Assembly: GCA_947475995.1 (NCBI GenBank)
Contig: CANJNI010000017.1
Coordinates: forward strand, 1-64,000
DNA length: 64,000 bases
Direction: 5' to 3'
Source of the DNA: Beijerinckiaceae bacterium
GTDB lineage: Bacteria; Pseudomonadota; Alphaproteobacteria; Rhizobiales; Beijerinckiaceae
Shown here: positions 28,651-30,797 of the stretch, one piece after another
Layout of the letters: each line of letters starts with the position of its first letter
Numbering within the stretch: the first letter of the stretch is position 1
Notes under the pieces: generated by a model
Told to the model about the DNA's origin: nothing
Seen by the model: only the letters and a program-made list of their open reading frames with translations
The model's database searches: none
Made by a program: the position numbers and the translations under genes

Positions 28651-29084
28651 ACATCGGAACGCGAATCGCGTCTATCCCGATTCGGACTCGTTTGGTTCGC
28701 CCCTTGTGCGGAATTCGCCAATCCGGCACAGCATGCGCGCGTGTTGCGAAACGAAGTTTTCAGACAGCGCCGATCCGATTCAAGAACACATGATTCGGAC
28801 TCGTTTGGTTCTCGCCCTGTCCGATTTTTGTCGATCCGGCACAGTTCGCCGGATGACGCCGGAACGAATGATTCAGATGGCGTCGCGCGCATTTTGGAAC
28901 TCCCGATTCGGACTCGTTTGGTTCGCCCGCCGTTCCGCAAATCCCGCTTTGATTCACCTCGCGAGGCCTTCAAAAAAAGCCCGCCCGCTAGGCATTTGTT
29001 AAGCGCTGAAACGCGCGAATCGAACAGTCGCGATTCGGACTCTCTTTGTGCCGCTTGTGTGCGGAAAGTCCCGATTTGAGTCAT
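28651..29084. repeat. Diverged tandem repeat array packed with GANTC sites
   Basis: Four units start at 28679, 28792, 28905 and 29032 (spacing 113, 113, 127). The first three begin with the identical 20-mer GATTCGGACTCGTTTGGTTC; the fourth keeps GATTCGGACTC and then diverges. Units 1 and 2 share ATCCGGCACAG at offset +42 and stay in register through the rest of the 113 bases (compare 28747 with 28860). Units 3 and 4 share TCCCG-N-TTTGA-N-TCA at offset +37. Each unit opens with two GANTC sites six bases apart; the array has 14 GANTC sites in 420 bases. The 113-base period is not a multiple of three and the region has no credible gene, so it is non-coding DNA. Function unknown. Confidence 0.85.
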
Positions 29085-29110
29085 CAACGGGCAAGCGCAT
29101 CAGGCAACAA

Positions 29111-29138
29111 AAAAGCCGGAGCTTTCGCTCCGGCTTTT
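29111..29138 (-). terminator. Terminator of the cyclophilin operon
   Basis: A 12-bp stem AAAAGCCGGAGC / GCTCCGGCTTTT with a TTTC loop. On the minus strand it follows the cyclophilin stop at 29169 and is trailed by T residues. It could also stop rightward transcripts coming from purN through the repeat array. Confidence 0.85.
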
Positions 29139-29168: not shown

Positions 29169-29624
29169 TCAGCTCAACGTCGCCTTGACGATCTTGTCGG
29201 GATTCTGCACGGGCTCGCCGCGCTTGATCTTGTCGACGTTCTCCATGCCGGACGTGACTTCGCCCCACACCGTGTACTGACGGTCGAGGAAGCGCGCATC
29301 GCCGAAGCAGATGAAGAACTGCGAGTTGGCAGAATTCGGGTTCTGGGCGCGGGCCATCGAGCAGGTGCCGCGCACATGCGGCTGGGCGTTGAACTCGGCC
29401 TTCAGGTCCGGATAGCTGGAGCCGCCGGTGCCGGTGCCCTTCGGGCAGCCGGTCTGGGCCATGAAGCCCTCGATGACGCGATGGAACACGATGCCATCGT
29501 AAAAGCCTTCGCCGACCAGCTTCTTGATGTGATCGACGTGGCCGGGCGCCAGATCGGGGCGCATCTTGATGACGACCGGGCCCTGCGTGGTTTCGAGCGT
29601 GAGCGTATTGCCTGCCTCGGACAT
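29169..29624 (-). CDS. ppiB: Cytoplasmic cyclophilin-type peptidyl-prolyl isomerase
   Basis: Catalyses cis-trans isomerisation of proline peptide bonds. The 151-residue product has no signal peptide. Active-site stretches are FYDGIVFHRVIEGFMAQTG, CSMARAQNPNSANSQFFI and YTVWGEV; the catalytic Arg and the Phe/Met/Gln residues are kept. The start is ATG at 29624 with AGGAAA upstream. It is the last gene of ppiA-like, TonB-C-like, ppiB. Confidence 0.95.
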   Translation of the reverse strand: MSEAGNTLTLETTQGPVVIKMRPDLAPGHVDHIKKLVGEGFYDGIVFHRVIEGFMAQTGCPKGTGTGGSSYPDLKAEFNAQPHVRGTCSMARAQNPNSANSQFFICFGDARFLDRQYTVWGEVTSGMENVDKIKRGEPVQNPDKIVKATLS

Positions 29625-29632
29625 GAATTTTC

Positions 29633-30241
29633 CTAGTGTGAGAGAGGGTCTGCCGGCTGCGCGCGCGTGGCCACGAACCGGATGGCGAAAGGACGCCCCG
29701 CAATAGCCGAACCGAGGTCCGGCGTAAACCGCAGGGGCGCGCAGGCGGAGATGGCCGCCAGAATGGAGCGCCGCAGCGCCTCGCGGTCCCCGCCCCCGGC
29801 CTTGATATATGTGACGGCAGGCGCGCCAATGACGCCGCCGCTGCGGGTGAACCCGAGCCGCAGGGAAATCTCGTAGGTCTCGCCTTCCCCGGGCGCGGGC
29901 GGCGACCAGCAATCGGCCAGTTGCTCGGCAATGTCGCGTGGCCGCCCGATGCTGCGGGCATCCCTGCCGTTCAACAGACCGGCAATCCGCTCCACCGTCA
30001 TGGTGAAGCCCTGCGGCTGCAAAACTGGATTTTGCGGATAGAGCGCGCCCGGATAGGGCGTGTGCGGTGAAGCCGCATGGGGCTTCAGATGCAGACGCGG
30101 CAGCGTCGGTTGGGCGGCCGCATGAGCATGCGGATAGGGCGCGCGGGGCGATTTCGCCCCGTGACGCTCCGGGCTTGCGGCAAGCGCTGGCGAGATCGCC
30201 AGCGCCCCCGCCAACAGGACTGCCGCAATCCTATTTGGCAT
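29633..30241 (-). CDS. Secreted protein with TonB/TolA C-terminal-like domain
   Basis: 202-residue exported protein: signal peptide (cleavage after ALA, residue 21), a His/Pro-rich linker to about residue 75, then a domain with the pattern of TonB/TolA C-termini (EISLRLGFTRSGGVIGAP, a helix with ILAAISACAPLRF, and a final strand FAIRFVATR). There is no TonB-like N-terminal transmembrane anchor beyond the signal peptide. The ATG at 30241 overlaps the stop of the upstream cyclophilin gene by 11 bases, and the downstream cyclophilin starts 8 bases after its stop. A role near the outer membrane is inference. Confidence 0.75.
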   Translation of the reverse strand: MPNRIAAVLLAGALAISPALAASPERHGAKSPRAPYPHAHAAAQPTLPRLHLKPHAASPHTPYPGALYPQNPVLQPQGFTMTVERIAGLLNGRDARSIGRPRDIAEQLADCWSPPAPGEGETYEISLRLGFTRSGGVIGAPAVTYIKAGGGDREALRRSILAAISACAPLRFTPDLGSAIAGRPFAIRFVATRAQPADPLSH

Positions 30242-30797
30242 CCGCCGCGAGCTGCATCTTGACGATCTTGTCCGGGCCCTGGACTTCGCCGTTGCGGTCC
30301 GCTGCGCCCTTCTTGATCTTGTCGACAATCTCCATCCCGGACGTGACTTCGCCGAACACCGTGTACTGGTTGTTCAGGAAGCTGGCCTCGGCGAAGCAAA
30401 TGAAGAATTGCGAATTCGCCGAGTTCGGATCGCCGGCGCGCGCCATGCCGAGCGTGCCGCGCTTGAAGGGCGTAGGGGTGAATTCCGCCGGAATGTTCGG
30501 CAGTTTCGAACCGCCGCGTCCCGTGCCGGTAGGATCGCCGGTCTGGGCCATGAAGCCCGCAATGACCCGGTGGAACACGATGCCGTCATAGAATCCCTGC
30601 TTCACGAGCGTCTTGATCTGCGCCACGTGCTTGGGCGCGAGGTCCGGCCGCAGGCGGATGGTGATGCGGCCATCCTTCGTGTCGAGATAAAGGGTGTTCT
30701 GCGGGTCGGCGGCCTGCGCGAAAGCGGACGCGACAGGCGCAGCCGCGAGCGCCGCAGCGGCTCCGGTCAACACGAGAGAACGGCGATCAATGGTCAT
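30231..30797 (-). CDS. ppiA: Exported cyclophilin-type peptidyl-prolyl isomerase
   Basis: Periplasmic relative of the downstream cyclophilin, 188 residues. The N-terminus is a signal peptide ending near ASAFAQA; DRRSLVLTG resembles a twin-arginine signal, so Tat export is possible. Active-site stretches FYDGIVFHRVIAGFMAQTG and NSANSQFFICF are intact. The C-terminal tail (DKIVKMQLA) matches that of the cytoplasmic copy, suggesting an old duplication. Confidence 0.93.
   Translation of the reverse strand: MTIDRRSLVLTGAAAALAAAPVASAFAQAADPQNTLYLDTKDGRITIRLRPDLAPKHVAQIKTLVKQGFYDGIVFHRVIAGFMAQTGDPTGTGRGGSKLPNIPAEFTPTPFKRGTLGMARAGDPNSANSQFFICFAEASFLNNQYTVFGEVTSGMEIVDKIKKGAADRNGEVQGPDKIVKMQLAADAK

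Follow-up and report, generated by a model that had tools for sequence, protein, structure and literature searches.

The GANTC-rich stretch between the purN and cyclophilin genes of a Beijerinckiaceae bacterium consists of four diverged copies of one intergenic unit, the ~54-bp motif of which has been conserved at unrelated intergenic loci across several genera, in contrast to the drifting DNA around it. The interpretation that we put forward, and to which we give about an even chance of being correct, is that of a tandem array of CcrM-associated intergenic repeats (CIR), found so far in the family Beijerinckiaceae, that works as a cluster of DNA-binding sites. In the window (the whole stretch of 64,000 nucleotides that was analysed), the array spans positions 28657–29088 on the plus strand and contains 14 GANTC sites (28663–29082), all located exactly where the original prediction had placed them.

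Structure and genomic context of the array

The array is located between two convergent genes, as both a purN-type formyl transferase (PF00551; 27942–28595, plus strand) and a cyclophilin-type peptidyl-prolyl isomerase (PF00160; 29169–29624, minus strand) read towards it. The intergenic gap has the predicted size of about 570 bases, but its ends differ from those proposed: it extends between the stop codons of purN (28595) and of the cyclophilin gene (29169), and the terminator-like hairpin of the cyclophilin gene (29111–29138, minus strand) lies inside it. In agreement with the proposed non-coding character of the array, no domain was found in the open frames that overlap it. Two cyclophilin genes are located close together on the minus strand of the window (29169–29624 and 30231–30797), and two matches are also present in many genomes of the genus.

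The four units were confirmed to be in register, with GATTCGGACTC at 28679, 28792, 28905, and 29032 (spacings of 113, 113, and 127 bp). All are on the plus strand. Unit 1 (28673–28735) comprises the half-sites GTTC-N7-GTGC and the second arm TCGCCAATCCGGCAC. Unit 2 (28786–28848), the weakest among the four, has half-sites GTTC-N7-GTCC, and unit 3 (28899–28961) contains GTTC-N7-GTTC, an exact LexA-type box. Unit 4 (29026–29088), with half-sites GTGC-N7-GTGC and the second arm GTCCCGATTTGAGTC, is the top match of model R1, which was built from 11 units of three sister genomes. Over 53 bp, units 2–4 are 81, 66, and 62% identical to unit 1; the units are too diverged for Tandem Repeats Finder, which fails to detect the array even with a score of 30. 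Two further elements involve CcrM sites: a palindromic sequence, ACGCGAATCGCGT (28659–28671), with the site at its centre, 5′ of the unit 1 core, and, at unit 4, an inverted pair of CcrM-site arms, CGAATCG-N8-CGATTCG (29016–29037, plus strand).

The GANTC density of the array is ∼14 times that sampled in the genome (2.445 per kb, from twenty 20-kb stretches that cover 400 kb of 4.14 Mb). At this density ∼1.03 sites are expected in 420 bases, compared with the 14 observed, so the claim of an unusual density was borne out. The Poisson probability of at least 14 sites is 6e-12 when the expectation is taken from the 400-kb genome sample and 9e-8 when it is taken from dinucleotide shuffles of the window. 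It had also been considered that such a density might be ordinary elsewhere. In the 400-kb sample and the window together, at least eight GANTC sites in ∼400 bases occur in two places: 13 sites lie in the array and 16 upstream of a Suv3-like helicase gene, with the third-densest place containing 7; the density of the array is rare, though not unique, in the sampled genome. The window as a whole is short of GANTC (166 sites versus 336 expected from shuffles), and avoidance of this sequence is described in one account as usual in CcrM-bearing alphaproteobacteria (PMC3973325).

Architecture and conservation of the repeat unit

The anatomy of the unit was derived from 78 units aligned by model and taken from 31 sources, some of which are mutually homologous. 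The conserved part is the ~54-bp motif CTCCYGATTCGGACnnGnTTYGTnC-N7-GTGC-n6-TCCCGnnTYGGGAC, in which the consensus elements follow in the order CTCCYGATTCGGAC, nnGnTTYGTnC-N7-GTGC, and TCCCGnnTYGGGAC. A single CcrM site forms the centre of GATTCGG, which is part of a near-palindrome, CCGATTCGG; the half-sites GGAC, GTnC, and GTGC start at 11-bp steps, and a second palindrome is located ∼41 bp beyond the first. The 78-unit profile has the two-arm layout described for CIR, with a CCGATTCGG arm that contains the GANTC site and a TCCCGnnTYGGGA arm, the second arm being imperfect in the window. GTnC at +16 is present in 71 of the 78 units, GTnC-N7-GTnC in 52, and GTnC-N7-GTGC in 43. The second-arm palindrome is a tendency rather than a rule, since TCCCG-N3-CGGGA is exact in 17/78 units and TCCC-N5-GGGA occurs in 26/78.

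YGATTCG, with C or T preceding GATTCG, was found in all 78 aligned units, which were chosen by the model. All of them fit the GcrA-linked motif YGAKTCG as given in one study (PMC7987155), which is in line with the originally suggested link to CcrM and GcrA. By contrast, the pairing of GANTC sites six bases apart, originally regarded as the selected feature, did not prove general: the second site at +6 occurs in 10/78 units, all from the window and two sister genomes, whereas units of other genomes mostly have one core GANTC, with the remaining motif conserved.

Conservation is concentrated in the core, as had been anticipated from the drift of the flanks. Among the 11 sister units from three genomes, mean pairwise identity reaches 0.80 in the core; it drops to 0.58 and 0.53 in the two nearest stretches, to 0.44 between −42 and −24, and to 0.26–0.28 in the outermost flanks, a pattern that is suggestive of DNA bound by protein. 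The units of the window clade were found independently of the model, by repeat search and BLAST; at other loci the units were model-chosen, which inflates their core conservation. Weak conservation extends from about −41 to +83; the loci on which it was counted are partly homologous, and shared descent accounts for part of it.

Distribution among relatives

In line with the expected conservation in relatives, unit-model searches matched genomes of both the genus and the family. In two metagenome-assembled genomes (MAGs) of the same genus (G034 and G035), an array is located next to the same cyclophilin gene, the products of which are 91 and 95% identical to that of the window. The opposite flank varies. 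It is formed by purN in the window and by purN followed by a CMD-family gene in G034, and the order in G035 is purM, purN, a CMD-like gene (these three named from their sequences alone), one unit, an FkbM-type gene, and three units. The FkbM-type methyltransferase gene that separates one unit from the other three lies in L060:4475–6304. One weaker unit (E 4e-5) adjoins the cyclophilin gene of G064, a genome outside the 30 whose cyclophilin loci were fetched; 27 of those 30 loci, all from the genus, have at most four GANTC sites in any 400 bases of the fetched sequence.

A search with model R1 identified further units at unrelated loci within the genus. With model R2, built from 33 units, full-length units were detected at E <1e-7 in 11 of 51 genus genomes; the other 40 showed none at this threshold, so the unit is dispensable. 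At E 1e-4 or better, R2 matched 52/248 family genomes in 13/43 genera. In the other genera of the family, full-length units are located at different loci and often form tandem arrays. Forty of these 52 genomes, from 12 genera, have matches that reach model position 52 or beyond, and the remaining 12 have the left part alone. In two of the 40 (G097 and G168, from two of the 12 genera), the unit adjoins the helicase gene, as judged at those loci that were tested. Intergenic status in relatives was judged from open-frame lists alone. A class-wide search of 385 genomes matched four, namely this genome and three from outside the family with partial matches (model positions 5–44), one of them upstream of a helicase homologue and the other two with fetched flanks in which no such gene was detected. 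This search had limited sensitivity, as few candidates were scored per genome, and absence outside the family is accordingly weak evidence.

The units have no fixed chromosomal position, since they lie ∼0.09 to 2 Mb away from hemE, with contigs taken as circular, in the 11 of 12 searched genomes that have both on one contig. In genus g66, tandem copies are arranged at near-constant steps of about 195 bp, and long arrays (L381–L385) occur in the vicinity of two genes, one for a UvrD-type helicase (addA-like in sequence) and one that looks like addB. A unit is common to two contigs of G091, one of plasmid size (36 kb) and one chromosomal (4.3 Mb), and so are several hundred bases of its flanks, at 80–90% identity (L390:3607–4076 and L392:3683–4064). 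A scan of contigs for two cores returned 101 stretches, 80 of which (L066–L145) were checked for spacings other than multiples of three. Such pairs were present in five: L084 and L140 are the sister MAGs, L089 is a series of short repeats similar to one another, and in L073 and L144 the remaining motif is absent. Judged from their spacing, the other two-core stretches look like Ser-Asp coding repeats. No exact match to the motif pattern was found in viral contigs, which is a weak negative because the pattern detects a single unit out of the four in the window. The published literature that was searched, mostly outside subscription papers, yielded no account of the repeat family.

Similarity to a helicase promoter region

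The left 35 bp of the unit resemble the GANTC-rich region upstream of the Suv3-like helicase gene. This gene is present in 41/51 genomes; 30 loci were fetched, 26 of which were readable via a motif anchor (L224, L231, L233, and L236 were dropped). In all 26, GTTC-N7-GTTC is located upstream of the gene and is preceded by GATTCG, in 21 of them by GATTCGGnC, and the region contains 4–16 GANTC sites in 450 bases. The upper end of this range, 16 sites, is found in the genome of the window (L228, G000:C2:31784–36214; helicase gene at C2:33284). The conserved upstream region is long at all 26 readable loci of the genus and includes TTGAC and GTGAACAAA blocks along with the LexA-type box. Part of this region is also present at a helicase homologue outside the family (L402).

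Because GTTC-N7-GTTC is also located upstream of lexA in 7/8 genomes, the element in the helicase region is plausibly a LexA box, although the sequence is common genome-wide, with 130 occurrences in this genome compared with 65 for a reversed control. One study notes that an overlap between LexA sites and GANTC can occur in the SOS genes of other alphaproteobacteria (PMC7987155). The array unit itself was rejected as a LexA operator, since GTGC replaces GTTC and the exact box occurs in 1/78 units, namely unit 3 of the window.

The helicase upstream region was also considered as a replication origin and rejected: in G021, based on 20 skew samples, the GC skew turns at ∼4.3–4.6 Mb, a range that includes hemE (4.52 Mb) but not the helicase gene (4.68 Mb). 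In the genome of the window, a GTTC-N7-GTTC sequence lies in an AT-rich stretch upstream of hemE, a likely origin region (L304, G000:C2:163348).

Interpretation and alternative explanations

Taken as a whole, the array resembles clustered protein-binding sites more closely than a gene or an RNA. This reading is favoured by the sister arrays, which stay at the cyclophilin gene while the genes on the opposite side differ, by the occurrence of units across genera of the family with a well-conserved core and drifting outer flanks, and by the lack of a covarying RNA helix. It is also favoured by the succession of GATTCG and GTTC-N7-GTTC at every readable helicase locus and by the finding that no other sampled GANTC cluster is as dense as those of the helicase region and the array. 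The dispensability of the unit and the difference between its half-sites and the LexA box count against it.

The unit could be a composite site to which a conserved regulator binds, and this regulator would also act at the promoter of the Suv3-like helicase gene, the key 35 bp of which the unit resembles. CcrM methylation, with sites hemimethylated after passage of the replication fork, may tune the binding of this regulator. GcrA is the leading candidate for binding the GATTCG part, and a LexA-like direct-repeat binder is a candidate for the half-sites. The window array, placed between two convergent genes, is for this reason probably a binding cluster and no promoter of purN or cyclophilin, and it might serve in titration or as a nucleoid site. 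A more specific proposal, which we consider unlikely, is that the arrays are clusters of a composite, methylation-sensitive operator whose replication-dependent binding titrates a regulator of the cell cycle or of DNA damage, as an alphaproteobacterial counterpart of datA; their operator would be related to that of the helicase promoter, with GTGC instead of GTTC as the second half-site.

The main rival, somewhat unlikely in our judgement, is a non-autonomous mobile repeat of the MITE or REP kind that carries CcrM sites passively, moves rarely, is duplicated in tandem, and has no function for the host. The dispersed intergenic positions, the differences in loci between genera, and the near-constant steps of the g66 tandem copies are all consistent with such an element, and CIR are listed among MITE-like repeats in the accounts consulted (PMC2229807, PMC10969869). 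Against it stand the low number of copies per genome and the retention of the motif in old, diverged arrays such as that of the window. In addition, the sole pair of copies that was compared, that of G091, shares its flanks as well, so a clean jump of a single unit was rejected for this pair. Selection may instead act on the GANTC sites themselves, in a methylation-density or replication-timing element. The 14 sites in 420 bases and the preferred offsets of extra sites in the 78 units (−28 in 25 units, +68 in 13, −15 in 12, and +6 in 10) agree with this explanation, and GANTC outside the cores was above chance in two of the three sister arrays, with 6 outside-core sites versus 2.0 expected in this genome (G000; P 0.02) and 9 versus 2.6 in G034 (P 0.002). 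In G035 it was not above chance (3 versus 1.6, P 0.23), and one of four further arrays, in which the mask leaves some cores in, was above chance. As units elsewhere mostly carry one core site within an otherwise conserved motif, we regard this explanation as quite improbable.

That the units are small RNA genes or structured RNA elements is very unlikely. The second arm is a palindrome that is able to pair (in 78% of cells), and CIR are drawn as RNA stem-loops in a 2007 review (PMC2229807), but pairing of the second arm is no better than in shuffles (78.3 versus 78.4%) and falls when the arm is slid, as with any palindrome. The aligned units yielded no consensus RNA fold, folds of individual units differ, and no covariation supporting a helix was detected; among 1896 column pairs scanned no helix was convincing, and the top single-pair scores came from columns in which few sequences pair. 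At the gathering score, the one Rfam match in 18 related stretches was an ffh sRNA, unrelated to the units and at another place in L397, and the window gave two sub-threshold matches alone, both at the terminator. Without conserved or covarying secondary structure, assignment to a structured RNA family was rejected. For a promoter or regulatory region of purN or the cyclophilin gene, the resemblance of the left part to the helicase promoter is offset by the direction of both genes, which read towards the array, and by a simple consensus scan, blind to other promoter types, that recognised no sigma-70-like site in the window array; we consider this highly improbable. Hardly credible is a decayed gene or transposon end, named at the outset as a finding that would speak against a functional array. 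Open frames of 112–251 aa do overlap the array, but three overlapping frames have no Pfam family above the cut-off, plasmid and phage collections gave no match, and the motif recurs across genera.

Comparison with known systems

The preferred reading, a CIR-type array of clustered binding sites, has parallels in several known systems. Reservoirs of binding sites such as datA resemble the array in being intergenic clusters of (here putative) binding sites at few loci; their motif is different, and both the binder and the titration are hypothetical in the present case. The LexA operator of alphaproteobacteria, GTTC-N7-GTTC, shares with the unit a direct repeat with an 11-bp step, whereas 43 of the 78 units carry GTnC-N7-GTGC. 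The GcrA-linked motif YGAKTCG was, as one study describes it, not simply recovered in another species (PMC7987155). Promoters controlled by GcrA and CcrM, as characterised by this motif, are similar to the units in their shared YGATTCG, but the window array differs from them in its convergent neighbours and in having no recognised promoter.

Repeats of the CIR type were reportedly first described in Caulobacter by Chen and Shapiro in 2003. In the 2007 review cited above, CIR of Caulobacter and Brucella are presented as intergenic elements of ∼110 bp with two inverted repeats, a linker, and GANTC in one arm, and their functional role is given as undetermined (PMC2229807). Known since 2003, CIR would gain a testable handle from the present family, which has a defined consensus, forms tandem arrays in several genera, and resembles one conserved promoter. 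The array element is nearest to CIR among known kinds, a tentative assignment by architecture: as far as CIR are described there, both are intergenic and non-coding, have a CcrM site in one of two linker-joined inverted-repeat arms, and occur in several copies per genome. The CIR length of ∼110 bp compares with ∼54 strongly conserved bp and weaker flanks in the array element. What is new relative to that description, and sets the element apart from CIR, is its tandem arrays, its confinement to one family within the genomes searched, its half-sites at 11-bp steps, and its likeness to the helicase promoter.
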